Shown: piece by piece, positions 13,648 through 47,025 of the stretch
Layout of the letters: each line of letters opens with the position of its first letter
How positions within the stretch are numbered: position 1 is the first letter of the stretch
Assembly: GCF_021531815.1 (NCBI RefSeq)
Contig: NZ_JADYUM010000006.1
Span: 1-64,000, forward strand
Direction of reading: 5' to 3'
Origin: Pseudoflavonifractor phocaeensis
GTDB taxonomy: Bacteria > Bacillota > Clostridia > Oscillospirales > Oscillospiraceae
DNA length: 64,000 nt
The notes under the pieces: generated by a model
The model's database searches: none
Told to the model about the DNA's origin: nothing
The model's input: only the letters and a program-made list of their open reading frames with translations
Position numbers and translations under genes: made by a program

Positions 13648-13683
13648 AAAAACGGCGCGGAACTCTCGTTCCGCGCCGTTTTT
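13648..13683. terminator. Bidirectional terminator closing the transporter gene and the phage cluster
   Basis: A perfect 16-bp stem (13648-13663 with 13668-13683) with five A on one side and five T on the other. It overlaps the stop of the last phage gene by one base. Confidence 0.9.
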
Positions 13684-14246
13684 CAATTCACATGGTTTTC
13701 CAGTTCTTCCCAGTTCAGTGCCAGATCCTCGATGTCCTGCCAGCAGGAGAATGTTTCCTCCAGTTCCTTCCAGGTCAGGTGCCAGAAAAAGTACTGGATC
13801 TCCAGATGGGGCGGCAGAATATCCTCGATGATCTTTTTCATCTGGTCAAAGCCCGCCGGCACCCCGGCCACGCCCGGGAAGGAGACTGTCACCCGCTCCA
13901 CCCCCGTCTCCTCCACCTTGGCCGCGATGCCGCAGCCCGAGATGGTATCATTGACGGCCGCCAGGGTAAAGCTGTCCCCGCCGATGCGGAGCAGGGCCGC
14001 CAGGGCAGCAGCCAGCGCCCTGGGCGTATCTGCCACCGGGCGCCGGACAAACAGGCCCGCCGTCCGCTCCAGGCCCCAGCCTTCCGCCGTGGCCAGACTG
14101 GTCTCCCGCAGGTCCTCCTCCAGCGTTTCTTCCACCCCGTCCAGGGCCTCTCCCGCCCCTTCCAGCTCTCCGGCGTTGAATGGGGCGTTCAGGTCATACA
14201 CACCCAGGGGGCGCAGCAGTTCCTTCAAAAATTGGGTGTAACTCAC
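13683..14246 (-). CDS. Baseplate/tail protein, XkdU (DUF2313) type
   Basis: The 187-residue protein starts M-S-Y-T-Q-F-L-K-E-L-L-R-P-L-G and is the last gene of the tail module, the position of XkdU in PBSX. The family is thought to sit between the baseplate wedge and the tail fibre, like P2 gpI. Its start overlaps the stop of the baseplate J gene by 4 bases. No fibre gene follows: the frame ends directly at the terminator, which is unusual. Confidence 0.75.
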   Translation of the reverse strand: MSYTQFLKELLRPLGVYDLNAPFNAGELEGAGEALDGVEETLEEDLRETSLATAEGWGLERTAGLFVRRPVADTPRALAAALAALLRIGGDSFTLAAVNDTISGCGIAAKVEETGVERVTVSFPGVAGVPAGFDQMKKIIEDILPPHLEIQYFFWHLTWKELEETFSCWQDIEDLALNWEELENHVN

Positions 14247-15298
14247 GCCATCTCCTCCAGTGTCAGGGTGCCCAGGACAGGCAGTATGTCCGCCGCCACG
14301 GCCACATCCGCCGCCGGAGTCTTGATGGCGTAGTTGCTCACGCTCTCACAGCTATAGATCAGGTTCCCCAGCTGGGCCCGCAGCACGCTCTGGCCCAGCC
14401 GCTTACCGGTAAACCAGTTTCGGAGGACCGCCTCCACCTCCGCCCGCGCCTCGGCAAAGCTCCGTCCTTCCCCGGGTTTGACCTGAACCGCCAGGTTCAC
14501 CGCCGCCGTCTCCGGCGCCCGCACCTGAACGTCCACAGCGATCTCCCGCCGCTCCTGAAAGTAGGCCTCCAGCTGGTCCAGCAGGTCCTGGTCCGGCAGG
14601 CCGGCCAGGGTGGTCACCACCACGTCCACCGTCCCCACGCCCCGGGGCCGGGGGACCACGGCGGCTCCGGCCACCTGGTCAAAGGACAGCGCCTCCTTCT
14701 GATAGTAGGCGGCGTTGGCCCCGTTGGGCAGACGGCGGTAGGTGTCCAGCACCCTTGTCCGCAGCACCTCGTCTCCCTCCTGGTCTCCGCCGCCGGCACA
14801 GGCCTCGGGATTGGTGCAGGAGGCAATGCCCGCCGGCGCCACCGTCATCACCGTGATGGTCCCGGCCGCCACATTTCCGGCGGCTCCGGGGGCCAGCGCC
14901 TGGACAGGCACCTCCGCAGTCAGGCTCCCCGCCGGAATGGTCCCGTCCTGGGTCGTCTCAAAGCGGATCAGTCCCGCCGTCATACACACCGTCCCCTTGG
15001 GGATGACCCGGGGTTCCCCGGCGGTGCTTCCCGCGGTGAAGCGGACCACGCCCTGGGCTGCCGAAGCCTTTTTCCGCTCCAGCCCCCGGAGCAGGGCGTG
15101 GCGGTCCAGATACTCCCCCTCCGCCGACTGGGGAAAAGCCTGCCGCACCGTCCAGTCCGCCTGAATATAGAGGGCGCAGACCTGGGCGGCCAGGGCGTAC
15201 AGCCGGACGGACAGGTCGCAGCTCGCCTCCGGCTCCAGCCCCGTCCGCTCCCCGTAGCAGGCCAGCATTTCACCATAGATCTCTTCTACTGTCTTCAT
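14243..15298 (-). CDS. Baseplate J-like protein (XkdT type)
   Basis: The 351-residue protein has the baseplate J architecture: an N-terminal helical part with Y-L-D-R-H-A near residue 63, a V-R-F-T-A-G-S beta domain near 85-91, a P-N-G-A-N-A-A-Y-Y segment near 190-200 and a C-terminal alpha/beta domain. In P2 and T4 the family forms the baseplate wedge. It follows the gp25-like gene by 15 bases. Confidence 0.88.
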   Translation of the reverse strand: MKTVEEIYGEMLACYGERTGLEPEASCDLSVRLYALAAQVCALYIQADWTVRQAFPQSAEGEYLDRHALLRGLERKKASAAQGVVRFTAGSTAGEPRVIPKGTVCMTAGLIRFETTQDGTIPAGSLTAEVPVQALAPGAAGNVAAGTITVMTVAPAGIASCTNPEACAGGGDQEGDEVLRTRVLDTYRRLPNGANAAYYQKEALSFDQVAGAAVVPRPRGVGTVDVVVTTLAGLPDQDLLDQLEAYFQERREIAVDVQVRAPETAAVNLAVQVKPGEGRSFAEARAEVEAVLRNWFTGKRLGQSVLRAQLGNLIYSCESVSNYAIKTPAADVAVAADILPVLGTLTLEEMA

Positions 15299-15313
15299 TC
15301 CTTCTCACCTCGG

Positions 15314-15661
15314 TCATGTCAGGCTCAGGGTCACCGACAGGGCCTCTCCCCGCCAGTTCAGCCGGACCGTCAGCTCCGCCTGTTCTCCCCGGTCGGTCAG
15401 TTCCACCCCGGCCACCTGCAGGTCGGGCTCCGCTTCCAAGGCCTCGGCCACATACTGGGCCGCCATAGCCTGCCGCGCGGAGGGCCTCTCCCGGAGGATC
15501 AAGTGGAGCCTGCTGCCCAGCTGAGGCAGAAAAGGCAGGCCGCCCCGCCGGGCGGTGAGCCGGTACAGCACCCGGCCCAGTACCTCGTCGCTCCCGCTCA
15601 GGCGGCACAATCCCCCGGCCCCGTTTGGCACATAGTCTCCGTCCATGATCTTCAATTCCAT
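15314..15661 (-). CDS. gp25-like baseplate protein (XkdS/DUF2634 type)
   Basis: This 115-residue protein sits exactly where XkdS lies in PBSX. It has a short beta N-terminus, then L-P-F-L-P-Q-L-G-S-R-L near residues 42-52 and a C-terminal beta-rich half ending L-N-W-R-G-E-A-L-S-V. gp25-like proteins initiate sheath polymerisation at the baseplate. Its ATG is 2 bases after the previous stop. Confidence 0.75.
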   Translation of the reverse strand: MELKIMDGDYVPNGAGGLCRLSGSDEVLGRVLYRLTARRGGLPFLPQLGSRLHLILRERPSARQAMAAQYVAEALEAEPDLQVAGVELTDRGEQAELTVRLNWRGEALSVTLSLT

Positions 15662-15663
15662 GT

Positions 15664-16056
15664 TCAGCCCCCCAGGATCGCCGCCACGATCATGGCGATG
15701 TATTCATCCAGCGTCACTCCATTGACCCACACTGTCCCGTTAAGGTCGACGGCGCCGTCACGCAGCGCCAGGGAACAGTCCGGCCCGTCCAGGCGCACCT
15801 CTCCCGGGCGCAGGTCCTCCCCCTGCTGGGCCCGGCCCAGGATGCAGGGTGCCTCCCGTTCTCCCCCCGTCTTCACCACCAGCACCTTGTCCCCGGCGGC
15901 AGGCCGCCAGGCATATCCTCCGGGGCTGTATACGGGCAGCCAGCGCCGCTCGCCTCCCAGGTTTACCCCCGCCGGGTCTCCGCCCAGGGTGACCAGACCC
16001 ACCTCAGCCGCCGCCTCCTGGACCACGGTTCGGCGGTCCCGCTCTGATGTCCACAT
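15664..16056 (-). CDS. Baseplate spike/hub protein, XkdR-position (gpV/DUF2577-like)
   Basis: The 130-residue protein looks like an OB-fold followed by a short beta region, with P-A-A-G-D-K-V-L-V and E-A-P-C-I-L-G-R repeats of the sort seen in gpV-type spikes. Its position matches XkdR. I chose the ATG at 16056 because GAGGTGAGGAG precedes it; the longer frame lacks a ribosome site. The C-terminal half ends in a hydrophobic A-M-I-V-A-A-I-L-G-G. Confidence 0.6.
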   Translation of the reverse strand: MWTSERDRRTVVQEAAAEVGLVTLGGDPAGVNLGGERRWLPVYSPGGYAWRPAAGDKVLVVKTGGEREAPCILGRAQQGEDLRPGEVRLDGPDCSLALRDGAVDLNGTVWVNGVTLDEYIAMIVAAILGG

Positions 16057-16121
16057 ACTCCTCACCTCATAAAGTCGAGCCTTGTTCAACGGCCCAGAAT
16101 ACGCCTTGTCTCACTAGTCAG

Positions 16122-17072
16122 CTACAGCACCAAATCAGGCGGGGCCAGCTCCAGCCTCGTCCAGTAGCCCCGGCTGTCCATCCCCGCCACGGTCCGCACC
16201 GCCCGGTACAAGCCGCAGCGGTCCCAATTGCTCCGCTGGATCCGCACCAGATCGCCCGGCCATGCGCCGAAGGGCTGGGCCACCGTCACCTCCAGCCGTT
16301 CCAGCTCCGCCGCCGAGCGGTCCAGCTGGAACTGCCCGGAGTAGCGCATGGCCTTATAGTTGCTCCGCCCCGGCATAGTAAGGACCCGCCGTGCCCGGCC
16401 GCCGTCGGCCAGAAAGGTCTTGTTCTCCACCTTCTGGACCGCGCCGCTGAACCGGTCCCGGACCAGCACCTGGGACAACACGCCGTACCGCTTATCCCGG
16501 CAGCACAGCCTGGTCACCGCCACGCCGTCCCCCACCAGCCGTTCCTGGGTGTCCGGCCAGCCGGTCAGCACCAGGCGGCCCAGGCGGTCAAACCGGGGCG
16601 TCACGCCCCCGTAGTACCGGGCGAAGTCATAGACCACCGACCATTCGCTGCTCCCGGTGGCCACAGAGAACCGGGATACCGCCGGGAGGTTGGCCCCCGG
16701 AGCCACTTGGATGCCGTACGGGGTCACATGGTCCCGCAGAATGTCCGCCTGGGTGGCGGTGCCGTAATCCTGGCCCAGGGCCTCGTTGTCCAGCAGCAGG
16801 GCTGCCATGCCCCGGCCCGACACCTCCAGCGCGCTCCCCGACTCCGACTGGGTCACCTGGCACTCATCCACCACGCCGGTAAACACCCGTTCTCCCTGCC
16901 ACTGCGCGGTAAACCCCACCCAGCGGGCGGGGTCCGTCCCGCTCCCCGCCTCCCAGGGACAGCGGAGCCAAAAGCTGTCACAGGGCACGCCGGAGGTATA
17001 CTCCATCTGCCATGCGGTGAGCACGGGCAATATCCACGTCTCACCTTTGGCGTCGGTCACATAGCCTCTCAC
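16122..17072 (-). CDS. Late control D-like tail hub protein (XkdQ type)
   Basis: The 316-residue protein occupies the XkdQ slot and has the late-control-D-like plan: an N-terminal domain with C-P-W-E-A-G and W-Q-G-E-R-V-F-T-G-V-V-D-E, a central H-V-T-P-Y-G-I region and C-terminal beta domain. These proteins form the trimeric hub through which the tail tube passes. The start is a GTG whose GTGA overlaps the LysM gene stop, with GAGGTGAGGG upstream. Confidence 0.78.
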   Translation of the reverse strand: MRGYVTDAKGETWILPVLTAWQMEYTSGVPCDSFWLRCPWEAGSGTDPARWVGFTAQWQGERVFTGVVDECQVTQSESGSALEVSGRGMAALLLDNEALGQDYGTATQADILRDHVTPYGIQVAPGANLPAVSRFSVATGSSEWSVVYDFARYYGGVTPRFDRLGRLVLTGWPDTQERLVGDGVAVTRLCCRDKRYGVLSQVLVRDRFSGAVQKVENKTFLADGGRARRVLTMPGRSNYKAMRYSGQFQLDRSAAELERLEVTVAQPFGAWPGDLVRIQRSNWDRCGLYRAVRTVAGMDSRGYWTRLELAPPDLVL

Positions 17073-17641
17073 CGCACCCTCACCTCGTCTCCCACCCAGA
17101 TCAGATTGGGATTCTTGATCTGGGGATTCAGGGCGATTAATTCCGACAGGGAGATGCCGTAGGTCTTGGCGATGGCCCACAGGGTGTCTCCCTTCACCAC
17201 CCGGTGGTACGCCGCGCCCGCGGAGGCGGAGACAGCCGCGGCGCTCGAATCCTCCTGTCCAGTGACTTTGGCGGCCATCCCGGTGTACCAGCTGTCATCC
17301 TCCCAGAAGGCGAAGGAGTACCGCACATAGTCGGGCCTAGGCTCCTGCTCCAGCCGCAGGGAGACAAAATAAGCGTTGGACGCCTGCCACAGGGGGTGGA
17401 CCAGCAGGCCCGGCCCGCCGTTGTAAAAGACATTGGCCAGCTTGCCAAACTGCGCGTAGGCGTCCTCCCCCACAAATTCCCCCTCTCCCTCCATGGTCCG
17501 GTGGGTCCGTCCCAGGTCCTGGAGGTGGAACAGGCCGAAGGGGGTCTTGTGCACCGCCATCTTCCGCTCGTAGTCGATGGAGTAAACCTTTGGATTGTGG
17601 GGCCAGGTATAGTTTTTATAGCGCATGGGCGAAAGTGTCAT
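17069..17641 (-). CDS. LysM tail protein (XkdP type)
   Basis: The 190-residue protein has an N-terminal tail domain (residues 1-120, rich in aromatic residues), an Ala/Ser linker and a C-terminal LysM domain of about 45 residues beginning Y-H-R-V-V-K-G-D-T-L-W. It corresponds to PBSX XkdP. LysM domains bind peptidoglycan or chitin-like glycans, and in phages of this class the protein lines the tube-baseplate junction. AGGAGGG lies 8 bases before the ATG. Confidence 0.88.
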   Translation of the reverse strand: MTLSPMRYKNYTWPHNPKVYSIDYERKMAVHKTPFGLFHLQDLGRTHRTMEGEGEFVGEDAYAQFGKLANVFYNGGPGLLVHPLWQASNAYFVSLRLEQEPRPDYVRYSFAFWEDDSWYTGMAAKVTGQEDSSAAAVSASAGAAYHRVVKGDTLWAIAKTYGISLSELIALNPQIKNPNLIWVGDEVRVR

Positions 17642-17686
17642 GCCCCGATCCCTCCTAAAGAATTGTAATGCCGGGGGCCGTCCCCG

Positions 17687-18199
17687 CTAATAGAGAAAGA
17701 AACCGCCGTCGTAGCGGCGGCTGTCCCGCCGGAACACCCGGTCCAGCCCCTCCGCCTGGAGGACCTCGTCGGTCCAAGCGGTACTTCCTGCTTCGCCGGA
17801 CCCTCTCCGCGTCTCTCCTGCGTCCGGCAGCAATTCCCCCCAGGGGACTGTCCCCCGCTGGGCTCCGCCCAGGTTCCGGTCAAAGTTGCTCCGGCCGCTT
17901 TCCGCTTCCTCCCCGTTCTCCCAGAGCGCCGGGGGCTCCTCCTCCCGGAGCTGTCCCCATCCCTCCAGCGCCCGGTCCAGGGCTTCCAGCTCCTCCAGCA
18001 GAGGCATGGAGAGGTATTCCTCCTCCTGGCCGCTTTGTTCCGGAGGCTCTGCTTCCTCCGGAGCGGCGGATGGTCCGGTTTCCTCCCCGCGGGGCCCGTC
18101 CGCCGCGTCTTCCTTCCGGCTGAATTGCTCCAGCTGCCGCACCGCCTCCCAGAGGGCGTCCTCGTCCTCCCCTTCCCGGGGTTCCAGATAGTCGGTCAC
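17687..18199 (-). CDS. Short acidic protein in the tape-measure position, unknown
   Basis: The 170-residue protein is strongly acidic, with Glu/Asp-rich, Pro-containing low-complexity sequence in its first two thirds and a basic-aromatic end, R-R-D-S-R-R-Y-D-G-G-F-F-L-Y. It lies between the tail chaperone and the LysM gene, where PBSX-like phages carry a tape measure of 1000 residues or more. It has no long coiled coil or membrane segment. Its GTG overlaps the chaperone stop. I cannot assign a function; it may be a tail-length or plug protein that replaced the tape measure. Confidence 0.55.
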   Translation of the reverse strand: MTDYLEPREGEDEDALWEAVRQLEQFSRKEDAADGPRGEETGPSAAPEEAEPPEQSGQEEEYLSMPLLEELEALDRALEGWGQLREEEPPALWENGEEAESGRSNFDRNLGGAQRGTVPWGELLPDAGETRRGSGEAGSTAWTDEVLQAEGLDRVFRRDSRRYDGGFFLY

Positions 18200-18833
18200 C
18201 GCCCGCCGCCTCCCTTCAATTCCTCAAACCGGCCAAGGTCAAAGGCCGGGTTGGCTGCGCCTTCCCCCCACCGGGGGGCGGGGCGGCCGCAGGCGGGGCA
18301 GCGGGCCTCCTCCGCCCGGCTCCGGCACTCAGGGCACAGCCGGTCCAGTTCCTCCTCCCGGTCCAGGATCATCTGGACCAGGCACCAGAGGTAGTCCCGC
18401 TCTTTCATGTCCTGGGTCCGTTTCTCCGTGGGCAGGGCCTGAAAGGCCTTCAGCACCCGCCACCGCAGCCGTCCGCCCCGGTCGGAGCGGAGTTTTTTTT
18501 TACGTTCTCCAGTTCCTCCCGGTCCAGGGTCAAGCCGGGGTCCGCCTCCTTCCGGAAGGCGGACCACCGGGCCGCCAGCGCGCCGATCTCCTCCACGGTC
18601 AAGCCGGCCAATACCGCCTCCCCGCTGTCGAAGACCGGGCTGTGGTCCCCGGTCCGCTCCAGCGCCCGGGCCAGCAGGCAGGCGTTGGAGCAGAGGGCCC
18701 GCTCCCGGTCTGACCGGGCCAGCTCCCCCGCCTCCCGCCGGGCCTGGAGGACCTCCAGGGCGGACAGCAGGCGCAGGTCCATGCCGTTGTCCAGGGTGAT
18801 CCGGTCACGCTGGGCCAAAATGGACAGGGTCAC
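18196..18833 (-). CDS. Tail assembly chaperone with programmed -1 frameshift (XkdN type)
   Basis: The first frame (18833-18450, 127 residues) is the XkdN-like chaperone. At a run of nine A (18501-18493, minus strand) the zero frame reads GTA AAA AAA AAC, which contains the slippery heptamer A-AAA-AAC. A -1 slip enters a second frame that runs to 18196 and gives a fusion of about 212 residues. The extension contains a zinc ribbon, C-P-E-C and C-P-A-C about 10 residues apart. Tail chaperones of lambda, PBSX and many others use this device to make short and long forms. The start is a GTG with GAGGTG upstream. Confidence 0.8.
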
Positions 18834-18836
18834 GGC

Positions 18837-19226
18837 TTACACCTCCGTCTCAATGCGCCGGGAGGCCACCAGGGTGACCTTCTCCAGCACCATGCTGCCC
18901 AGGGTGGCGTTCTCCTGGATGGAGCTCCACTGGCAGTCGGAGTAGATGATCTTCCGGTCCGGCTTGCAGATGACCAGGGAGAAGCCGGACAGGCTGTAAA
19001 AGTCGATGCCGTCCCGGATGGCCTCGTCGGTGGCGTACAGCCGGGTCAGCTCCACCACATGCTTGGCCTGGCCCGGAATGGTGGCCACCGGCTCCTGTTC
19101 CCCGAAGGCCTCCACGGCGGTGCTGCTCTTGGTGGCCTTGGCGGTGTAGCTCTGGACCACCGCCACCCGGGTACCGTCCACCTCCAGATAGATGTCGCTG
19201 CTGGTGGGAAATCCCGCGATACTCAT
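18837..19226 (-). CDS. Tail tube protein (XkdM type)
   Basis: The 129-residue protein is a contractile-tail tube subunit, with D-I-Y-L-E-V-D-G near the N-terminus and E-K-V-T-L-V-A-S-R at the C-terminus. It lies between sheath and chaperone genes, as in PBSX. Hexamers stack to form the inner tube. The ribosome site is GGGAGG with 7-base spacing. Confidence 0.85.
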   Translation of the reverse strand: MSIAGFPTSSDIYLEVDGTRVAVVQSYTAKATKSSTAVEAFGEQEPVATIPGQAKHVVELTRLYATDEAIRDGIDFYSLSGFSLVICKPDRKIIYSDCQWSSIQENATLGSMVLEKVTLVASRRIETEV

Positions 19227-19244
19227 GCTCTAACCTCCCTCGCT

Positions 19245-20303
19245 TCAAACGGTAATATGGGCCGTGAGCCAGATCTGATTCAGCCCATGGGCCACGGTGA
19301 AGGAGAAGTCCACCAGACACCGGGTGGGGTCTTCGGCGTCCGCCGTCACCGCCACATTCTCATAGCCGGTGATAATCTCCCGGGCCAGCTTGTTCTCCAG
19401 CTCCAGCACCACCTGGGCCCGGATGGCCCCCCGGCTCTGCTCCGTGTTCTTGGCCCGGCGGAACTTGGCCCGCAGGGCGGTGCGCAGGCTGGGGATCACG
19501 TCGTCCACAATGCGGATGGTGGACAGGTCCCGCCAGGTGCTGTCCGCCGCCTCCCCGGTGGTGGTGCGGGTAGTGATCCCCCGGACCACCGTGATCGCGC
19601 CCCCCACCTGCTCCACGGGGGTAACGCCCCCCAGAATCAGCCGGTCCAGGTCATTGTCCTCATAGCGCAGGGCCAAGCCGTGGAGGCCCAGCAGCTCCGC
19701 GCCGCCCATGGGGACGGCGGGGTCACCCTCCCCCGCGATGGCCCCGGCCAATGCCGCCGCCACCGACACGCCGGAGAGGCCGGCTCCCTGGCTGTCCACG
19801 GCCCCGGGGGCCGTCAGTACCACCCGCTCATGGTTCAGTTCCTTGGCCCGGGCGATCAGGTCGTCCACCGATTCGTCCTTGGCCCCGGCCACCACGGCGA
19901 TGCGCTCCCGCCGGGCCTGGGACGCCTGGACGGCGCTGTCCCGCAGCTTCTTCTGGACCGCCGTGTCCGTGCTATCGCAGATGAGGACGGAGATGTCCTC
20001 TGTCATGTTCAGCGCGTCAAAGGCCGCCTGATAGCCGCTCTCGTCCGCCGCCGCCACCGCGGCCACGGCGGAGGCGCCGTTTTTCAGAGCCAGACGGATC
20101 AGCTCCGCCATGTCCTGCCCCCCGGCGGAGCCGAAGGTAGCCACCGCCTTGTCATAGCTGGTGATGATATGGACCGTTCCCGCCTGGGCCACCGTATTGA
20201 TCGCCGCCAGGCCCACGGTCTTTCCGCCGCCGCTGCCGCTCACCACCGAGGACGCGTCATAGGCGGAGTAGACCCCCGGACGCTGATGTACCGTGATATT
20301 CAT
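19245..20303 (-). CDS. Tail sheath protein (XkdK type)
   Basis: The 352-residue protein starts M-N-I-T-V-H-Q-R-P-G-V-Y-S and has the sheath family's central Rossmann-like region and a C-terminal domain ending F-S-F-T-V-A-H-G-L-N-Q-I. It forms the contractile outer tail layer, so the particle would be myovirus-like. The ATG at 20303 overlaps the previous stop (ATGA) and has GAGGTGG 9 bases upstream; the ATG at 20312 has no space for a ribosome site. Confidence 0.92.
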   Translation of the reverse strand: MNITVHQRPGVYSAYDASSVVSGSGGGKTVGLAAINTVAQAGTVHIITSYDKAVATFGSAGGQDMAELIRLALKNGASAVAAVAAADESGYQAAFDALNMTEDISVLICDSTDTAVQKKLRDSAVQASQARRERIAVVAGAKDESVDDLIARAKELNHERVVLTAPGAVDSQGAGLSGVSVAAALAGAIAGEGDPAVPMGGAELLGLHGLALRYEDNDLDRLILGGVTPVEQVGGAITVVRGITTRTTTGEAADSTWRDLSTIRIVDDVIPSLRTALRAKFRRAKNTEQSRGAIRAQVVLELENKLAREIITGYENVAVTADAEDPTRCLVDFSFTVAHGLNQIWLTAHITV

Positions 20304-20803
20304 GTTTTCCATCCACCTCGCAGTTCAAAATCCAAAAAGAGCCCGCCCGACTGGGGCGTGCTGTACAGCCAGGCCTGACACACCGCCTGGGCCGTCCGTT
20401 TCAGCAGACTTGCCTGACTGTCGTGCTTCGTCTCCCCGCAGGAGAACTCCAGCACCTCCAGCCCCTGGGGTCCGTCTCCGGCGAGGGCGGCGGCCAGGGT
20501 GTCGAAGGCCGCCTGGAGCTCCGCCCCGTCCCCCCGGGCGGGGGCGTACAGGTCCAGGCCGAAGGTGAGCCTGACCTTCCGACCATACAGCTCCTCCCAC
20601 AGTCCGGTGGTTTCGTTGTACCGCTCCCCCAGGTAATTCTGAAAGCCGGCGGGCCCGGCCTCACATGCCCGCAGGGAGACCACCGCCACCGGGGCCTCCA
20701 GCACCTGCCGCTGTCCCTGGGGCCAGGCCGTCACGGCCCGCACCCCCCGCTCCGTCAAATAGCCGGCCATCCGCTCCCGGATGTTCTCCAATCCAGTGCT
20801 CAT
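20300..20803 (-). CDS. Tail completion/terminator-like protein, XkdI-J position
   Basis: The 167-residue protein lies between the head-closure gene and the sheath, where PBSX-like phages encode the tail terminator. It has an N-terminal R-E-R-M-A-G-Y-L-T-E-R-G helix and an L-T-F-G-L-D-L-Y-A-P strand near residue 90. The start overlaps the previous stop (ATGA) and has GGAGGAACT upstream. The function rests on position. Confidence 0.6.
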   Translation of the reverse strand: MSTGLENIRERMAGYLTERGVRAVTAWPQGQRQVLEAPVAVVSLRACEAGPAGFQNYLGERYNETTGLWEELYGRKVRLTFGLDLYAPARGDGAELQAAFDTLAAALAGDGPQGLEVLEFSCGETKHDSQASLLKRTAQAVCQAWLYSTPQSGGLFLDFELRGGWKT

Positions 20804-21123
20804 AGTTCCTCCTTGTCCCGGGGACGGAGCAGGGCCCACCAGTGGCTGTCTCCCACCTGGTGGGCCGACTGGACGTCATAGTCCCGTTTCCCCCACGTCA
20901 CCCGGCTCTCCCCGGCAGTCAGCGGCTGGTCGCCGGGACCCAGATAGAGCATCCGGTCCTCCCGGCGCAGGCCCAGGGGGGAGGGCACCTCCTGTCCCCG
21001 GCTCCGGTCCAGCACCGGCTGGAGGAAGGCCCGCAGGGGCACCTCCTCCTGGCCGGCTCTGGGGCGCACCAGGACCTGCTGTCCGTAGCGGTTCAAAATG
21101 CTCCGCCACTCCCGGTCCATCAT
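20800..21123 (-). CDS. Head-closure/stopper-like protein
   Basis: The 107-residue protein begins M-M-D-R-E-W-R-S-I-L-N-R-Y-G-Q and is beta-rich with G-P-G-D-Q-P-L in the middle. It overlaps both neighbours by 4 bases, and its place (after the first connector, before the tail terminator) suggests a stopper that seals the head-tail interface. Assigned from synteny. Confidence 0.55.
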   Translation of the reverse strand: MMDREWRSILNRYGQQVLVRPRAGQEEVPLRAFLQPVLDRSRGQEVPSPLGLRREDRMLYLGPGDQPLTAGESRVTWGKRDYDVQSAHQVGDSHWWALLRPRDKEEL

Positions 21124-21467
21124 CCCGCCACCCCCCGGAAAGCAAAGCCCGTCTCCCCCAGCCAGGGGGCCATCAGCCGCTCCGCCTGGGCGGTGCGGGA
21201 CTCGCTTTTGTCTGCCCCGGTGCGGATGGACACATCGCCCGCGGTAAAGGAGGTCACCCGTCCGTTCCCCGCCACGCCTTCCAGACCGTCCATGACCACC
21301 ATGGCGGCGGCCAGGAGGAAGGCGTCGCCGCAGTCCTCCGGCGTGACTCCCGCTCTCAGCCGCCCCTCCATGGCGGACACCACCGCCCGGACCAGGGGGA
21401 GCAGCAGCTCCTCCCGGTCCCCATCGGCCCCCATGGCTTTACACAGGGCTACGATTTCTTCCGTCAT
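21120..21467 (-). CDS. Head-tail connector (gp6-like/XkdH position)
   Basis: The 115-residue, mostly helical protein follows the capsid gene by one base and fits a gp6-like adaptor. The ATG at 21467 has GGAGG at a 6-base spacing inside the capsid gene end. The longer frame would overlap the capsid gene and has no ribosome site. Confidence 0.6.
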   Translation of the reverse strand: MTEEIVALCKAMGADGDREELLLPLVRAVVSAMEGRLRAGVTPEDCGDAFLLAAAMVVMDGLEGVAGNGRVTSFTAGDVSIRTGADKSESRTAQAERLMAPWLGETGFAFRGVAG

Positions 21468-21468
21468 C

Positions 21469-22476
21469 TCAAACCTCCAGCACGCGGGAAGCGTCCTGGA
21501 ACACCTTGGCAAAGCCGCTGACAGTGGTGATGGCGGCCCGCTCCAGCTGGCGGTCGATGAGCTTGTCGTACTCCACCATCACGTCGCTGCCCTGGACCAT
21601 CTCCAGGGCGAACCGCTTGTCCAAGCCGATGGCGGTGCCGGCGGGCAGGACAGAGGTGCGCAGCAGGGTGGCGCCCAGGGGGGTGGTCAGCTTGCCGGTG
21701 CCCTGGAAATTCAGGCCGGTCATGGGATTCTGGAACTCGGACAGCTTGAGCATCTTGACCATCACGTCGCCGGACACCAGCAGGGCGTTCATCTGGTAGG
21801 GGTCGAACTTGGCCCAGAAGTCCACCAGGTCGTCGTAGGTCAGGGTGCCCTTGGAAGCCACCTGGTCCACGGCGGCGGCGTTGTTGTTGCCGTCGCCGTT
21901 CATCAGCACATCCACCGCGTCCTCCAGGTTGGCCCGGGCGATGTGGGCGCCGATCTGGCGCAGGGTGACGGAGAACAGGTCCAGCTTCTGATAGCGCACC
22001 GCCTCATAGCTGGCCACCAGCATACGGCCCCGCTTGCGCAGCTTGACCAGATTGGACTGGACCTGGATCGTGGTGGCGGGAATGGCCGTCCCCTCCTCAA
22101 CATGGCGCAGCTCATGGGCTTCCCCATTCTCGGCGGTGATGGAACGGTAATCCATACCCTCGAACTTGGTGACGGCGGCGGTGATATGAGGCAGGATGTC
22201 CTCCTCCATGCCCTGGCGGACAGCCCGGGCGATGTACTCGGGGAACAGGACGGCGGAATCGGCGGTGCGGAAGAACTTTTCCACCACGTCGCTGCCCGCG
22301 CCTTTCACCTTGATGTCAAAGCGCTTGAGCTGGCGCTGGAAGGCGTCCAGCCCCTCCAGGCTGGTGCCTTTGTACTGCTCGCTGGGGTCCAGGCGCTCCA
22401 GCACCTGGGTAAAGGTGCTGCCCGCCTCCTGGTACATGCCCTTGTCCAGTTTCAGATTGTCATAAGAAAAAGCCAT
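21469..22476 (-). CDS. Major capsid protein (XkdG-like, HK97 fold)
   Basis: The 335-residue protein is the expected major head subunit: an N-terminal arm with Q-E-A-G-S-T-F-T-Q-V, an E-loop region near residues 100-125 and the conserved ending V-S-G-F-A-K-V-F-Q-D-A-S. HK97-fold capsid proteins of this group build the icosahedral head. It carries GAGAGGAG 11 bases before the ATG and follows the decoration gene. Confidence 0.87.
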   Translation of the reverse strand: MAFSYDNLKLDKGMYQEAGSTFTQVLERLDPSEQYKGTSLEGLDAFQRQLKRFDIKVKGAGSDVVEKFFRTADSAVLFPEYIARAVRQGMEEDILPHITAAVTKFEGMDYRSITAENGEAHELRHVEEGTAIPATTIQVQSNLVKLRKRGRMLVASYEAVRYQKLDLFSVTLRQIGAHIARANLEDAVDVLMNGDGNNNAAAVDQVASKGTLTYDDLVDFWAKFDPYQMNALLVSGDVMVKMLKLSEFQNPMTGLNFQGTGKLTTPLGATLLRTSVLPAGTAIGLDKRFALEMVQGSDVMVEYDKLIDRQLERAAITTVSGFAKVFQDASRVLEV

Positions 22477-22497
22477 TGTTCCACGCTCCTCTCAAAA

Positions 22498-22836
22498 TTA
22501 CAGACACACCACGGCGCTGCCGCTGCCGGCGCTGACTACCAGGACAGTGACGCCGCCGCTGGCGGCCGCCTTTACGCCGCCCTGGCCGTCGGCCGCCAGG
22601 GTGGTCCATCCCAGGGCCAGGTCGCCGGTGCAGCTGACGGTGACAAAGCCCTTCACCTGGACGGCGGCAGCGCTCTTCCGGGGCTCCAGGGCCACGCCGC
22701 AGAAAGCGTCCCCCGCGGCGCAGGGGCCAACGGTGCCGTTGCCCGTCACCTTGACCACCTGGCCGCCCTCCACGCCCTCGTCCGCGGCGAAGGTGGCCGT
22801 CACGGCCCCAATGTCTTCAAAGGAAATTTTGCTCAT
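22498..22836 (-). CDS. Capsid decoration-like protein
   Basis: The 112-residue, Gly/Ala/Val-rich all-beta protein lies just before the major capsid gene. Such proteins stabilise HK97-like heads as trimers on the surface. I start at the ATG at 22836, with GGGAGG upstream; a TTG two codons earlier is possible. Confidence 0.6.
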   Translation of the reverse strand: MSKISFEDIGAVTATFAADEGVEGGQVVKVTGNGTVGPCAAGDAFCGVALEPRKSAAAVQVKGFVTVSCTGDLALGWTTLAADGQGGVKAAASGGVTVLVVSAGSGSAVVCL

Positions 22837-22866
22837 CCTCAATGTTCCTCCCTTGTTTATTTGGTA

Positions 22867-22886
22867 GGGCGGGTATTTCTCCCGCC
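22867..22886 (-). other. Hairpin between protease and decoration genes
   Basis: A 6-7 bp GC stem (22867-22873 with 22881-22886) with a 7-base loop and no T-tract. It lies in the 50-base gap upstream of the highly expressed head genes and could protect or attenuate the mRNA. Confidence 0.4.
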
Positions 22887-22893
22887 GCTATCC

Positions 22894-23829
22894 TCAAATC
22901 AAAAACGCCCGGTCCTTCTCGCTGTCCAGGGTTGCTTTCTCCCCGTACTCCAGCTGGGGTTTCAGGGGATAGCGCTCCTCCGCCCGGCCGCCGTAGGCCC
23001 GCTTCATGGCCAGCAGTTCCTCCCGGGACAGCTTGTCCGTCATGCCCGTCAGCGTTTCGCAGTCCAGGCCCATCCCGGCCAGCAGTCCCAGGCGCACCAC
23101 TTCCTGCCTCAGCTCAGTCAGATAGGTCCGGCCCAGCCGGGCCTCCTCCTCCAATTTCTCCAGTTCCCGGGCGCAGCCGGGATGCTCCGCGGCCAGGGTC
23201 TTCAGATCGGCGTACACCCGGCCCGCACCCTTAACCACTCCGGCGGCAGGCTGGGCGGGCACCGCCACGAAGGAGAACTCATAGGCGTCATCGGCCCCCT
23301 CCAGGCTGGCGTAGCACAGCTGCCCGTCGTAGCGCTCTCCCTTTTTGTGGCCGCACGCGGCCCGGTTCAGGTCCGCCCCGCAGATGGAACACACCGCGCG
23401 CTCCACCGCGCAGCCCACGCTGACCTCCTTCTTGATGCCCCCCTCGATCTCTGCGATCAGGTCCTTTGTGCTGTCGGTACGCACCATATAGGCGTACCCC
23501 TTCAGCCAGCAGTAGCCGTCCCCCGCCCGGGTGAGCTTCTCCGGCTCCTGAATCACCTCGGCCTTGTAGATGCGGGCGGCCTGACCCCGGGCGGACCACT
23601 GGTGGTCAAAGATGCCGCTCTTGCCCACAAACAGAGGGGCCAGCTCCTCCAGGGTCCGGGGGGCGAACCGCTCCAAGTCCCGGTCCACCTCGTTGTCGCA
23701 CAGCCGCACTGAGAAGGTGTACACCTCCTCCGCTTTCAGTTCCTTCCGGGATAGGGCGTTGATGAGGACCAGGTCCTCCCCGGTCACCGCCGTGCCCTGT
23801 CCTCCCTGGGATTCCTTTACGATCTTCAT
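22894..23829 (-). CDS. Prohead protease/scaffold-like protein (XkdF type)
   Basis: The 311-residue protein has an N-terminal protease-like half (D-N-E-V-D-R-D-L-E-R-F near 45-56; F-D-H-Q-W near 74) and a charged, coiled-coil C-terminal half that would act as scaffold. A Cys-x-x-Cys...Cys-Gly-His cluster (C-S-I-C near 146) may bind zinc. It overlaps the portal gene by 4 bases. XkdF-type proteins are processed during head maturation. The catalytic residues cannot be fixed from sequence alone. Confidence 0.75.
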   Translation of the reverse strand: MKIVKESQGGQGTAVTGEDLVLINALSRKELKAEEVYTFSVRLCDNEVDRDLERFAPRTLEELAPLFVGKSGIFDHQWSARGQAARIYKAEVIQEPEKLTRAGDGYCWLKGYAYMVRTDSTKDLIAEIEGGIKKEVSVGCAVERAVCSICGADLNRAACGHKKGERYDGQLCYASLEGADDAYEFSFVAVPAQPAAGVVKGAGRVYADLKTLAAEHPGCARELEKLEEEARLGRTYLTELRQEVVRLGLLAGMGLDCETLTGMTDKLSREELLAMKRAYGGRAEERYPLKPQLEYGEKATLDSEKDRAFLI

Positions 23830-24965
23830 GTGTTCTCCTCCTTCATGCTCTCCGCCTGGGCGCGGTACAGATCGGCCTTGGCCTCCTCCACGATGTCCTG
23901 CAGGTTGATGTCCTCCCAGACGATCTCCACCCGGTCATCATAGCCGCGGAGCCGCAGCCACAGCTCGGCCACCCGGCACAGCACCGGTTCCACGCTGCGG
24001 CGGATGGCGGTGATCTCGCTGGTGAGCAGGTCGGCCTGCTGGGTGCTCATCCGCTCGGTGGAGGACCAGGACAGGCCCAGCATGAAGGGCGGAATGCCCG
24101 TCCGAGCCACCAGCTGCTCCAAAATCTGCCGCACCGGCACCTGGCTGTCCAGCACCTGGCTGTCGGCGCCGATGACCTTGATGTCCACGTCGCCCACCGC
24201 CACAAAGTCCCGTACCGAGCCCTCCCGGCCCGCCTGCATGGCGGAGGACCACTCCTGGGCGATCTGGCGGCACCGCTCCTGGGCAAAGCCCCCCTCGCCC
24301 TCCTCAGGCCGGCACACCACGGCAAAGCGCAGGTTGCCCGCCCGCTCCCAGTTCTGTCCCGTGGTCTGGAAGATCTTCAGCAGGATGCCCGCCAGAAAGG
24401 GCATGGACCGCAGCAGGGACACCCCACAGGGGGCGTCTCCCGTGGGCTGGAAGGGGGTGAACAGCAGCAGGTCCTGAAAGGGCAGTTCCTCCGGCGCTCC
24501 CACCTTCCGTTGGCACAGGCGGAAGTCCATGGGGTTGTCTCCCGTCTTCACTTCCACCTGCTCCGGGTCAGCGCACAGCAGGGCGGCGATATCCCGTCCG
24601 CCGGGTGCCAATACGATCTCTCCCAGGCCGTGGCCGCAGGTGAACATAGCGTCCAGATACCGGTCCAGAAAGGACTGCACCCCCCGCTGGCCCCAGCCTG
24701 TGTCCACCGTCTTCCAAAACCGCTCCAGCCCCGGCTGGGCCCGGCCGTCCCTGCACCGGACGGACATGCCGCCGCACAGGCGTACCAGCTTCCAGATGGC
24801 GGCGTCCACAATGGGCACGCCCTCCCGGATGGCCCGGTACAGGCTCAGTTCTCCCGGCCGCAGGGGCGTGTACCGCTCCAGCGCGCCGAAGGGGTGGCTG
24901 CCGCCCTGGCGCACCTGCACCACCGGAGCGGGCGGCTCCTTCCGTTTCCGTTCCCACCATTTCAC
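23826..24965 (-). CDS. Portal protein (XkdE-like)
   Basis: The 379-residue protein fits the PBSX-type portal family: a hydrophobic clip domain and a C-terminal region with W-S-S-T-E-R-M-S-T-Q-Q-A-D near residues 311-323. The dodecameric portal is the DNA gate in the head. It starts at a GTG with GGGGGAG upstream. A 117-base gap with palindromes separates it from the terminase gene. Confidence 0.82.
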   Translation of the reverse strand: MKWWERKRKEPPAPVVQVRQGGSHPFGALERYTPLRPGELSLYRAIREGVPIVDAAIWKLVRLCGGMSVRCRDGRAQPGLERFWKTVDTGWGQRGVQSFLDRYLDAMFTCGHGLGEIVLAPGGRDIAALLCADPEQVEVKTGDNPMDFRLCQRKVGAPEELPFQDLLLFTPFQPTGDAPCGVSLLRSMPFLAGILLKIFQTTGQNWERAGNLRFAVVCRPEEGEGGFAQERCRQIAQEWSSAMQAGREGSVRDFVAVGDVDIKVIGADSQVLDSQVPVRQILEQLVARTGIPPFMLGLSWSSTERMSTQQADLLTSEITAIRRSVEPVLCRVAELWLRLRGYDDRVEIVWEDINLQDIVEEAKADLYRAQAESMKEENT

Positions 24966-24988
24966 TTTACTGACTCCCCCTTTTTGTA

Positions 24989-25060
24989 GGGACCGCCGTC
25001 CCCGACGGCCCGTCTTCCCGCCACAGGCGGAATGGATAAAAAGGTCCGGCGAAGCCGGAC
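24989..25060 (-). repeat. Short palindromes between terminase and portal genes
   Basis: Two nested hairpins, GGGAC-N4-GTCCC (24989-25002) or GCCGTC-N3-GACGGC (24995-25009), and a second, GTCCGGC-N3-GCCGGAC (25044-25060), fill an otherwise empty gap. A related GGGACGGCCCCCGG string occurs near 17670. They look like small mobile palindromes or mRNA-processing sites. Confidence 0.45.
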
Positions 25061-25082
25061 ACCACGTTTCCTGATTGCTGGC

Positions 25083-26342
25083 TCAAAACCTTCTCCGCTC
25101 CACGCTCCCCGCAAACCAGCTGCCGTTTGTCTCCTTCGCCGCCACCGTGGCGGCAAAATAGCGGATCTCATCCATGGCATGGTCATGTTCTTTCCGCACC
25201 CGGTCCTGGCCGTCCCCCTGTTCTTCCCAACGGTAGAGGGAGAACTCCCGGATGGCGTCCCCGCAGCCCTTGCAGATGACGATTTTCCCCGCCTTCAGCA
25301 GCCGGGCGGTGAGACGGATGCCGGACAGCACCTCGTTGTCCGCCTTCCGCACCCGCCATCCCCGGCGGCGCAGTGTCTCGATAAAGCTGGCGGCGGAGGG
25401 GTCTACCACCACTGCCCGGATCTCCCGCCCCCCGGCCAGTCCGGCCAGCTCGTCTGCGTACTCCTCGTCGGTCTTCTGCCGCCGCTGCTGCCTGGCGTCG
25501 TAGTAATACTCCGCCACCCGGTACCACACCCCGTTCCGCTGGCCCCACAGCCCCATGGACGTGGGATTCAGGGTGCCGTAATCACAGGAGATGTGCCAGT
25601 TTTCCAGATTTTCCCTTGGAACATCCTGCACAAAGCGTTCGTCGAAAAAGTCGTAGACCCGCCCCTCGGCGGCCACCCACTCCCCCAGGACGAACCGGCG
25701 GTAGAAGGTCCCCTCAAACATGGTCTTGTACCGTTCCAGCACCTCCGGGGACAGCCCCGGATTGTCCTCCATGGAGAATTGGAGGCGCAGTGCTTTTTTC
25801 TCCTCTGTTTTTAAGATCCATTCCCGGTAGAACCAGTGGGCCGGGGACTCGGGGTTGCAGGAGAACCACAGCTTGCTGCCTGTCACCGAACACCGGGCCA
25901 CCGCCTGCTCCACAAAGGACCGGGGCATCAGCGCCACCTCGTCCAGCAGGGCCCCCGCCAGGGTGATCCCCTGGATCAGGGCCGCCGAGCCCTCGTCCTT
26001 GCCGCCGAACAGGTAAAAGGTATTGCTGTGCCCGCCCAGCCGGACCTTCAGGATATTCCGGGACACCTTCTGCTCACAGCGAAAGCCCATGTTTTCCAAC
26101 AGGGGCAGCAGCTCCTCCAGCAGGTTCCGCCGCACGGACACAATGGTTTTTCCGCACAGGGCGAAGTTCTTCCGGTGGAAGGAACGCATGGCCCAGCAGA
26201 AAAAGGAAAGGCCGGTGCACAGGGTCTTGCCGCTGCGCACCGCGCCGTCGCAGATGATGGCCTGTTTCTCCCTGTGGGGCGAGCCAGGCCGCCACCAGGT
26301 CAACACGTTCCGCTGCTTGGGGGAAAACACCATGTCCTCCAC
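25083..26342 (-). CDS. Terminase large subunit (PBSX/XtmB type)
   Basis: The 419-residue packaging motor has Walker A D-G-A-V-R-S-G-K-T near residues 31-39, Walker B L-L-D-E-V-A-L-M near 112-119 and a C-terminal RNase-H-like nuclease with V-V-D-P-S-A-A-S. It cuts and pumps DNA into the head. The GTG start lies 5 bases after the small subunit stop. An ATG three codons downstream is an alternative, but its ribosome site would be only 2 bases away. Confidence 0.92.
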   Translation of the reverse strand: MEDMVFSPKQRNVLTWWRPGSPHREKQAIICDGAVRSGKTLCTGLSFFCWAMRSFHRKNFALCGKTIVSVRRNLLEELLPLLENMGFRCEQKVSRNILKVRLGGHSNTFYLFGGKDEGSAALIQGITLAGALLDEVALMPRSFVEQAVARCSVTGSKLWFSCNPESPAHWFYREWILKTEEKKALRLQFSMEDNPGLSPEVLERYKTMFEGTFYRRFVLGEWVAAEGRVYDFFDERFVQDVPRENLENWHISCDYGTLNPTSMGLWGQRNGVWYRVAEYYYDARQQRRQKTDEEYADELAGLAGGREIRAVVVDPSAASFIETLRRRGWRVRKADNEVLSGIRLTARLLKAGKIVICKGCGDAIREFSLYRWEEQGDGQDRVRKEHDHAMDEIRYFAATVAAKETNGSWFAGSVERRRF

Positions 26343-26346
26343 GGCC

Positions 26347-26643
26347 TCATTCCCCCTTCCCCTCCATGGCGCTCAGGAAGCGGTCCACCTGTTCCTCACC
26401 GCTGTGGTCCGCGGCGTCCAGCAGCCGCTCCAGGAGCCTGCCCCGGTCGGCGAATTTCAGCTCGATGACCCCGTTGGCCCCCCGCTTGAATTCAGTGAGG
26501 GCGTCCAGGTCCAGGTTCTCCAGGCTGCCCCACTCCTCCTCTGGGAAGCAGGCCAGACGGACTGCGTCCACGGCTCCGGCGTTGGCCAGCTTCCACATGC
26601 GTTTTAAAATCTGCTCCCGTCCCGGGAGTTTTGTGTTCGCCAC
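26347..26643 (-). CDS. Terminase small subunit (short form)
   Basis: The 98-residue protein lies directly before TerL and contains F-K-R-G-A-N-G-V-I-E-L-K-F-A-D-R, a stretch seen at the C-terminus of PBSX-type small terminases. It is shorter than XtmA and no clear N-terminal helix-turn-helix is visible, so DNA recognition may be altered. It starts at a GTG with AGGAGG at 6 bases. It is the first gene of the cluster. Confidence 0.6.
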   Translation of the reverse strand: MANTKLPGREQILKRMWKLANAGAVDAVRLACFPEEEWGSLENLDLDALTEFKRGANGVIELKFADRGRLLERLLDAADHSGEEQVDRFLSAMEGKGE

Positions 26644-26754
26644 CCTATCCCTCCTCACCTATCCCCTCCCAGCGCGCAAATGTTGCACGTTTCCCGTCAC
26701 CCAAGAAAAATAAATTTTCGTTTATGGGGCAAAGGGATTCGCCCTGCGGGGCGA

Positions 26755-41092: not shown

Positions 41093-42688
41093 CTATCCTC
41101 TGCCCCGCCGTTCCAGGACCCCCAGGTCATCTGAGAACGTGTATGTAATTTCCAGCTGTCCATCCTCGAAGACCAGGATCTGCCTGATGGTCTCAGCCAC
41201 GGTGGCCCGGTCCAAAGCCGTCAGCTTCCCCCGCTTCAGCAGCTCCGATACCCACGGCCTGTCCAGTCCCCTGTCCCGCGTCTGTTCCGGCCGCTCCAGC
41301 TGCCCGGAGAGCAGTTTCTCCTGGCGCTGGTAGTCCTCCTGATAGCGGAGGAAGTCCTCTTTGGTGATCAAACCGTCTTTGTAGTCTTCATAGGCGGACT
41401 TTTTTAGCCTGCGGACCCGCTCCAGATTCCCCAGCAGGCGTTCCCGCTCCCCTTTGCGGTCGCAGGTCTTTGCCTCCGGCCGGGCCCCCTCCGCCAGCTC
41501 CTTCAGGTCCTCCACCGCCGAGATGATCTTGTTCAGGTCCTCCAGTACGATCTGTTCCAGCGCCCGGTACGAGATGCCGTGGCGGGTGCAGACTGTGGGG
41601 CCGTACCGCTTGTAGGAGCCGCAGCAGTAGTACACGCCGCCCGGACCGTTGGTTTTGCTCATGGCCCGTCCGCAATCGCCGCAGCGCAGGAAACCTGCAA
41701 AAGGGCTGATATTTTCCTTGAAGTTCAGCGTCCGGGTGTCCCGCTGCAGCAGGGATTGGACCCGCTCCCACTGTTCCGCGCCGATGATGGCCTCGTGGGT
41801 ATGTTCCACTACCGCCCACTGGTCCTTCGACACAAGCCTGGCTTTGCCGTGCATGGTCTGACGGGGCGTCTTACCCTGTTCCATGTTGCCGGCGTACATC
41901 TGGTTGTTCAGGATGCGGTGTATGGTGGCGTAGGTCCAATAGGTTGTCCCATTCAGCTTCTGACCATTGTGATATTTCTCACCGTTGAGTTTCTTGTACT
42001 CGCTGGGGCAGGGCACCCCTTCGGCGTTCAATGTCTTGGCGATCTTGATTTTTCCATATCCCTGTTCAAATAAGGTAAAAATCCGCTGTACCACAGCCGC
42101 CGCCGGCGGGTCAACGATCAGCCGGTTGTGGTCGTTGGGGTCCTTCTGATACCCATAGCTGGCAAAGGCGCCTACAAACTCCCCTCGCCGCTGTTTGGCT
42201 TGGAAGGAACTTCGCACCTTTTGGGAGATATCCCGCGCGTACTGTTCGTTGATGATGTTCTTCACCGGGAGCAGCATGTCATAAGGGCCTTTTTCACTGT
42301 CGATATTGTCCCCGATGGCGACAAAGCGCACACCACGCTCTGGGAACCACCGCTCCAGATAGCGTCCCACATCAATGTAATCTCTTCCGAAACGGGACAG
42401 GTCCTTGACCACCACGCAGTTGACCCGCCCGGACTCAATATCCGCAATCAGGCGTTTGAATGCAGGACGCTCAAAATTTGTACCGGTATAGCCATCATCC
42501 ACGTAAAAGTCCATCGCTGCCATATCCGGCCGTTGGGCCAGATAGTCCTCCAGGAGCTTCTTCTGGTTGGCAATGCTATAGCTCTCCGGCTTGTCGCCGT
42601 CCTCCCGGGACAGGCGGGCATAGAGGGCGGCGCGCCACATGGCGCCGCCAAAGGGGCGATTCGCTTGGTTCCGCTTTGTACGTGCCAT
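41093..42688 (-). CDS. Large serine recombinase (TndX/TnpX type)
   Basis: The 531-residue integrase has the resolvase domain with catalytic Ser27 in L-Y-A-R-L-S-R-E-D, a recombinase domain with G-Y-Q-K near residue 160, a zinc ribbon (C-G-D-C-G near 320, then Y-Y-C-C-G and V-C) and a long coiled-coil C-terminus. It integrates and excises DNA circles between short core dinucleotides. It lies directly inside the disrupted gene, as expected for the integrase of the element. The ATG at 42688 has GGGAGGTG upstream. Confidence 0.92.
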   Translation of the reverse strand: MARTKRNQANRPFGGAMWRAALYARLSREDGDKPESYSIANQKKLLEDYLAQRPDMAAMDFYVDDGYTGTNFERPAFKRLIADIESGRVNCVVVKDLSRFGRDYIDVGRYLERWFPERGVRFVAIGDNIDSEKGPYDMLLPVKNIINEQYARDISQKVRSSFQAKQRRGEFVGAFASYGYQKDPNDHNRLIVDPPAAAVVQRIFTLFEQGYGKIKIAKTLNAEGVPCPSEYKKLNGEKYHNGQKLNGTTYWTYATIHRILNNQMYAGNMEQGKTPRQTMHGKARLVSKDQWAVVEHTHEAIIGAEQWERVQSLLQRDTRTLNFKENISPFAGFLRCGDCGRAMSKTNGPGGVYYCCGSYKRYGPTVCTRHGISYRALEQIVLEDLNKIISAVEDLKELAEGARPEAKTCDRKGERERLLGNLERVRRLKKSAYEDYKDGLITKEDFLRYQEDYQRQEKLLSGQLERPEQTRDRGLDRPWVSELLKRGKLTALDRATVAETIRQILVFEDGQLEITYTFSDDLGVLERRGRG

Positions 42689-42721
42689 GGGCACACCTCC
42701 CTTCCACTGTAATATGCAGAC

Positions 42722-42865: not shown

Positions 42866-43025
42866 TTTCTCCCTCCTCTCCGGTTTTGGATTCTATCCTT
42901 AATGAATGCGGCACATCGTCTGGCTTAGAACTCCAAATGCCTCTTTCCTGTGTATGATATATACGCGATACCTGGGAGAAAATCGGAAAATCCATCGTTT
43001 GGCGCGCGGCAGGCCGAAAATCAGC

Positions 43026-45081: not shown

Positions 45082-45111
45082 TTTTAATAACTAATTTTTT
45101 GGAGGATATTC

Positions 45112-47017: not shown

Positions 47018-47025
47018 ATGAAGAT

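Follow-up and report, generated by a model that had tools for sequence, protein, structure and literature searches.

A PBSX-ordered phage-type cluster of Pseudoflavonifractor phocaeensis, probably a domesticated gene-transfer-agent-like particle with a miniature contractile tail

PBSX of Bacillus subtilis has a contractile tail and a gene order that runs from the head genes through sheath, tube, frameshifted chaperone, tape measure, LysM protein and hub to the baseplate; its tape measure is long, and fibre and lysis genes are part of the locus. RcGTA and CcGTA are gene transfer agents (GTAs) of Alphaproteobacteria that are controlled by GafA or GafYZ. Faecalibacterium belongs to the same order, Oscillospirales, as Pseudoflavonifractor phocaeensis, the bacterium studied here. 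We analysed a 64,000-nt window of this species (the whole stretch considered, positions 1 to 64,000 of contig NZ_JADYUM010000006.1, assembly GCF_021531815.1), which carries on its minus strand, from 26643 to 13683, a cluster of phage-type head, packaging and tail genes. One study names PBSX as the first of the GTA-like systems in Gram-positive bacteria, reports GTA-like packaging in Onthomonas (3 of 25 events) and, from a search of four metagenome-assembled genomes for an operon, gives one strong candidate, in Faecalibacterium (PMC12946183).

Compared with these systems, the window cluster shares the gene order and contractile tail of PBSX, but its tape-measure position codes for only 170 aa and gpI is the last gene of the locus, so that we rejected a full PBSX-like element. 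Any likeness to RcGTA and CcGTA, whose tails are of a different type, implies no homology. It comprises a length of ~14 kb and, to judge from homologues, possibly a small terminase (TerS) without an N-terminal DNA-binding domain (PMC6854486, PMC11150451), together with vertical descent and GC content raised at codon positions 1 and 2 (PMC7360931). FpGTA I and II, compared here by description and not by sequence, resemble the cluster in having a TerS without an obvious DNA-binding domain followed by large terminase (TerL), portal and capsid, all in a short operon without replication genes, and FpGTA is near-ubiquitous in its genus. In contrast, FpGTA is described as podovirus-like, with no identifiable tails and with fibre and lysis genes in a second operon (PMC12946183), whereas in the window a single operon includes the genes for sheath and baseplate. 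The literature that we searched, within its accessible text, names no such operon in Oscillospiraceae.

We conclude, with a probability of about two in three, that the cluster encodes a vertically inherited, domesticated phage particle of Oscillospirales that is PBSX-ordered and works as a GTA-like DNA-packaging machine with a miniature contractile tail. A selected, GTA-like particle had already been proposed in a reading made from the letters without database searches (hereafter the sequence-only reading), and the proposal was supported by the substitution ratios described below, with vertical descent, the probable truncation of TerS and base composition as further support.

Selection, descent and head retention

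The cluster comprises ~20 frames, all intact and mostly touching or overlapping, among which Pfam and PHROG matches identify a large terminase, portal, capsid, sheath, LysM protein with DNA_circ_N, hub, baseplate J and gpI-like protein. The frame map and family matches bear out the coordinates, strand and intact, coupled head, packaging and tail genes of the sequence-only reading. Pooled ratios of nonsynonymous to synonymous substitution (dN/dS; NG86 method) were calculated from the first 16 greedy independent pairs with capsid identity of 0.80–0.985, giving 5–16 pairs per gene. They ranged from 0.07 to 0.42 over all 20 frames: lowest for capsid (0.07), tube (0.08), portal and TerL (both 0.13) and TerS (0.14), intermediate for LysM and gpI (both 0.17), sheath (0.19) and J (0.20), up to 0.31 for the others, and highest for the small tape-position gene (0.42). 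These values are not near 1 and no capsid match contains a stop, in line with the earlier claim that the intact frames are under selection.

To compare descent with that of the host, we built trees from the window's own genome and 58 of the 80 family loci that were fetched for locus analysis (from 107 positive family genomes, with longer contigs favoured). A head tree of TerL, portal, a 311-aa head protein and capsid agreed closely with a tree of 12 ribosomal proteins across the 59 genomes (Mantel r 0.87, a value reached by 0 of 999 permutations), and the two shared 35 of 56 splits, where shuffled labels gave at most 2. Tail genes followed the ribosomal tree nearly as closely (r 0.83, 52 genomes). 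It is well supported by these comparisons that the cluster has been domesticated, inherited vertically and held under selection. Three features by which a GTA is recognised were found: Caudoviricete genes for head and packaging that are fixed in the chromosome, co-descent with the host, and purifying selection.

Base composition was also GTA-like, and TerS may be so. GC content of the cluster exceeded that of its flanks in 75 of 79 loci (79 of the 80 were compared), by a median of 4.1 points, and that of the ribosomal operon in 53 of 57. In the window, the cluster and six host genes had GC of 0.678 versus 0.600 at first, 0.465 versus 0.405 at second and 0.855 versus 0.888 at third codon positions, and 4.82 versus 4.99 carbons per residue; RcGTA-like regions are likewise reported to have GC raised at the first two codon positions (PMC7360931). 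For the TerS-like protein (98 aa, 26347–26643, minus strand, as are all cluster genes below), 17 homologues were compared with Terminase_2, and 12 of them gave a match at E ≤ 1, the best at 1.9e-6. The homologue in locus L099 aligns to positions 52–127 of the 141 in that family (23.8 bits, below the curated cut-off of 26.1). As read from this alignment, the TerS would be without the N-terminal DNA-binding part and would resemble that of RcGTA, whose gp1 has no N-terminal DNA-binding domain, a feature proposed by the authors as a mark of GTA TerS proteins (PMC6854486).

Profile searches of the 80 family loci, which had been chosen by capsid, found TerL and portal in 79 each, sheath in 72 and J in 71. 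TerL and portal were missing solely from L049, whose contig starts after them. Reduced tails took several forms: L072 keeps the baseplate, with sheath and tube at trace scores; in L098 chaperone, tape, J and gpI are missing, with sheath, tube, LysM and hub present; L101 has the head, a weak tube match and LysM; and L099 has the head with connectors. Among 20 loci of other families (20 of 50, comprising 16 fetched order-sample hits outside family f1 plus others, with L346, L350 and L357 on short contigs), TerS and TerL were found in 19, portal and capsid in 20, sheath in 5 and J in 10. Four loci from family f26 (L348, L352, L359 and L361) have nothing in their ~7 kb beyond TerS, TerL, portal, capsid, the 311-aa protein and a protein resembling the hub, which is similar to FpGTA I as it is described. 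A reciprocal sheath search of the same 300 family genomes gave 97 cluster-type matches (E below 1e-30), 95 of them in genomes that also have the capsid, and 12 family genomes, among them G116 and G261 with the capsid at a contig end, had no cluster-type sheath to go with it. We conclude that retention of the head over the tail is favoured, but not absolute, in these gene inventories.

Mapping across Oscillospiraceae, as the sequence-only reading had proposed, located stop-free relatives of the cluster capsid in 107 of 300 family genomes and in 80 of 189 good ones. There is a single capsid match and a single sheath match in the window's own genome, and one capsid copy per family genome except for two contig-end pieces in G103; the copies in G081 and G116 are partial. 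Across the order, capsid was found in 71 of 394 genomes, from families f1, f2, f7, f14, f23 and f26, with a second full-length copy in G581 and two fragments in G650. Named carriers among the best 80 of 554 relatives include Flavonifractor, Pseudoflavonifractor, Oscillibacter, Intestinimonas, Lawsonibacter and Flintibacter; none of those 80 is named Faecalibacterium. Gut isolates with the cluster include Flavonifractor sp. An100 (L111), Oscillibacter valericigenes Sjm18-20 (L178) and Flintibacter muris DSM 110149 (L132). The class sample had capsid in 11 of 391 genomes, three of them outside the order: G781, assessed from the layout of its open reading frames (ORFs) alone, and G1001 and G933, which are siphovirus-like prophage regions with siphovirus-like tail proteins. 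These two share with the cluster a homologous capsid (E 1.4e-45 and 3.2e-26) and 311-aa-type and decoration proteins, but differ from it in a 1761-aa PhageMin_Tail protein (G1001), a 1781-aa ORF (G933) and Sipho_tail and Prophage_tail proteins.

A current phage was rejected as the source of the cluster, since 50,697 phage records yielded only five capsid matches above 50% identity, all on uncultured faecal contigs, plus three at 23–25%; a portal search gave the same five contigs and one Microcystis phage at 30%. The longest of the five, MT835508 (L271), is of faecal origin, 46.7 kb long and recorded as a bacteriophage, but proved to be a piece of bacterial chromosome with a head-only cluster at ~21.6–27.7 kb; seven of eight flanking ORFs tested are host-type (SecY, RpoA and others). 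Packaging would fit the presence of this host DNA in a virome, and contamination is also possible. IMG/VR holds 379 contigs with a capsid relative; in a subset of 80, 36 cover the cluster from TerS or TerL as far as gpI, and in 9 of the 36 neither contig end lies more than 25 nt from the matched genes.

Genes, leader and flanks of the cluster

Downstream of TerS, the large terminase (25083–26342) matches Terminase_6N, Terminase_3 and phrog_2, and its Walker and nuclease residues are conserved in 75–76 rows of the alignment. The portal (23826–24965) matches phrog_30703 (E 4.5e-154), with Phage_portal below the cut-off. The 311-aa head protein (22894–23829, phrog_16951), to which no role is assigned, is present in all 80 family loci and is followed by a decoration-like protein (22498–22836, phrog_4588, virion structural protein) and the major capsid protein (21469–22476; Phage_capsid_4, phrog_3922). 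Next come a candidate head-tail connector (21120–21467) with a weak match to phrog_541 (E 0.002), a 107-aa protein in a connector position (20800–21123), without a Pfam or PHROG match and conserved in relatives, and a 167-aa protein in the tail-completion position (20300–20803; phrog_25177, of unknown function).

The contractile tail sheath (19245–20303) matches Phage_sheath_1, Phage_sheath_1C and phrog_279. The gene after it (18837–19226; phrog_27038, of unknown function, and weakly phrog_985) and the frameshifted pair that follows we take, from their positions, to be the tail tube and the tail chaperone. The N part of the chaperone (18450–18833) overlaps a C part in the −1 frame (18196–18493), which contains a zinc-ribbon-like stretch (DZR_2, E 0.0006, below the cut-off). 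Where the two overlap, a slippery run of nine A residues (18493–18501) lies in GTA AAA AAA AAC (18503–18492). This preserved frameshift site, predicted in the sequence-only reading, recurs in relatives: of 30 with a run of 7–9 A residues at the overlap, the C frame is −1 in 26, the same in 3 and other in 1. The two parts are fused in one ORF in L046, L048 and L110.

That reading had also claimed that there was no tape measure, which holds for a full-size protein only: the position between chaperone and LysM is filled by a 170-aa protein (17687–18199, read 18199 to 17687) without a Pfam or PHROG match, inferred from its position to be a miniature tape measure. The longest ORF in the interval from tube to LysM was 277 aa over 72 family loci, and in 64 of these the tape-position protein, of 52–277 aa, has the motif RD[ASGT]RR[YF] near its C-terminus; the motif is absent from the other 8. 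Tape measures span ~0.15 nm per residue, so that 170 aa would correspond to a tail of at most ~25 nm. The LysM protein (17069–17641; LysM, DNA_circ_N, phrog_184) had been seen as a retained cell-wall-binding part. We did not uphold this, since DNA_circ_N and matches to baseplate-hub and Gpu-like tail families identify it as a part of the tail or baseplate, with no proof of a wall adhesin. The remaining genes are a baseplate hub (16122–17072; phrog_177, E 6.6e-34, and Gp44-like_2nd), a candidate spike or OB-fold baseplate protein (15664–16089; Phage_base_V, E 0.004), a gp46/gp25-like baseplate wedge (15314–15661; GP46, E 0.003, and phrog_43), baseplate J (14243–15298; Baseplate_J, E 5.6e-56) and, last, a gpI-like tail protein (13683–14246; phrog_521).

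Alignment of the leaders of 29 loci placed an imperfect dyad, GGGTGACGGGAAACGTGCAACATTT, before TerS in the window (26678–26702, minus strand). Perfect inverted repeats with arms of at least 6 occurred in 27 of 59 leaders, the window's being a different repeat, compared with a mean of 7.3 and a maximum of 14 in shuffles and with 12 of 59 in a control region. The form TTGYAC...GTRCAA was found in 11 leaders, mostly ~47–62 nt upstream of TerS and frequently followed by T residues; a longer version, TTGYACG-N4-CGTRCAA, is seen ~50–60 nt before TerS in L090, L094, L072 and L052, for example. The leader dyad may be an operator or a terminator-like leader; for CcGTA, a promoter with a near-perfect palindrome and anti-termination are reported (PMC11150451). 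We rejected control by LexA, since GAACN4GTTC occurred in none of 58 leaders and the sole match in the window lies inside the terminator. A regulon was also unsupported: the pattern with one mismatch was found solely at the cluster in G000, G039 and G237, at the cluster and two other places in G275, and in G189 and G128 at a single site outside the cluster; the reversed pattern gave 0–4 matches per genome.

As had been noted earlier, a bidirectional terminator closes the cluster (13683–13648, both strands; a stem of 16 bp flanked by A and T tracts, with −29.6 kcal/mol and z −6.9). Of ten flanking frames scanned with Pfam, eight gave host-type matches and two, on the plus strand, gave none; no integrase-type gene was recognised among them, which agrees with the reported absence of integration genes at the cluster. 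One flank holds an AMP-binding enzyme and a transporter, the opposite one dacA, glgB and glycogen genes, and in four same-genus loci dacA flanks the cluster in four, glgB in three and the AMP-binding gene in two. With host-type flanks here, and with the cluster borders seen in relatives, the locus did not qualify as a complete temperate phage. Long plus-strand ORFs lie over the cluster, including one of 956 aa antisense to the capsid region (20842–23712), and are read as putative shadow frames of GC-rich coding DNA. GC drops to ~0.48–0.58 at 42000–61000, compared with ~0.60–0.64 over a large part of the window's left half.

Fibre and lysis genes had been described as missing, and this is true of the window, but in some relatives gpI is followed by a protein of the CBM_5_12 or Phage_holin_4_1 family or by an M15 peptidase. 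In 243 loci, duplicates included, we counted 18 proteins like the CBM protein of L041, 19 like the holin of L042 and 11 like the M15 peptidase of L060; Pfam confirmed one of each, in L041, L054 and L060. No CBM, holin or M15 gene follows gpI in the window or in L031. A complete prophage elsewhere that might supply such genes, raised in the sequence-only reading, was answered for the families searched, with one capsid, one sheath and no searched tail, holin or fibre match in the genome; M15 peptidase gave weak C-terminal matches only. A dedicated second lysis and fibre locus was rejected for G237, where holin and CBM genes lie ~55 kb from the cluster beside integrase and repressor genes. That region (L391; G237:C7:104000-123579) is prophage-like, with two integrases, a repressor and a reverse transcriptase besides Phage_holin_4_1 and the CBM protein, and we read it as an ordinary prophage.

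Alternative readings and biological meaning

If the cluster works as a GTA-like machine, the operon would respond to some inducing condition by way of its own leader, and TerL, with a TerS that has lost sequence-specific DNA binding, would fill heads with pieces of the host chromosome. The heads would bear a miniature contractile tail of up to ~25 nm, cells would lyse through genes not recognised in this analysis, and the particles would deliver DNA to kin. The particle probably packages pieces of bacterial DNA, but several findings weigh against the proposal as a whole. Foremost is the lack of lysis and attachment genes among the families searched, the main gap: the own genome has no Phage_holin_4_1, PhageMin_Tail or CBM-fibre match. 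Unlike 12 of its 17 homologues, the TerS of the window has no Terminase_2 match, and it gave a weak structure model (predicted local distance difference test score 60.9). Of the head splits with support, four contradict the species tree at 0.90, two at 0.95 and none at 0.99. The cluster is absent from 193 of 300 family genomes, which needs many losses, and the same-genus genome G128 has a different ORF before dacA and no cluster. Two of three distant prophage regions are likewise 2–3 GC points above their surroundings. Because loci were fetched via capsid, head retention is partly built in, and two family genomes (G054 and G254) have sheath without a capsid match; these two led us to lower our confidence slightly, to 0.66.

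The order of the genes is also that expected of a PBSX-like killing particle, in which heads fill with host DNA while the selected function is a contractile tail that kills neighbours. Purifying selection on sheath, hub and baseplate fits such a role, and PBSX is described as not injecting its DNA (PMC12946183). We nevertheless consider it unlikely, given that 12 family genomes have capsid without a cluster-type sheath and only two the reverse, that 15 of 20 capsid-selected order-sample loci have no sheath match, and that the tape-measure position is tiny. A tailocin was rejected outright, since terminase, portal and capsid are present. It is less likely still that the capsid system is kept for protein delivery, for storage or as a satellite-like phage parasite: no attachment or lysis genes were found among the families searched and some relatives have degenerate tails, but the catalytic residues of TerL, the portal and TerS are all retained, and vertical descent with no adjoining integrase argues against a mobile satellite. 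Decay of a defective prophage would account for the lack of a normal-size tape measure and of fibre, lysis and integration genes in the window, yet with dN/dS of 0.07–0.42, stop-free capsid genes and descent shared with the host we judge it very improbable.

Within the GTA-like reading, the relatives can tentatively be arranged as an ancient Oscillospirales GTA lineage whose tail has been worn down stepwise, from a tape of ~50–280 residues, through sheath and tube without tape and baseplate without sheath, to a head with connector and hub proteins only, possibly the FpGTA state; we hold this historical order to be a little short of even odds. If it is true, PBSX would not be the only contractile GTA lineage, and the random packaging of host DNA in faecal particles of Oscillospiraceae would have a gene locus. 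The cluster is a concrete candidate locus for packaging in Oscillospiraceae, which is reported without a described operon (PMC12946183). Its relatives form a natural series from a miniature tail to almost none, useful for defining minimal tail requirements. Oscillospirales are common bacteria of the animal gut, and a particle system retained through much of the order would offer genes a permanent route of exchange.

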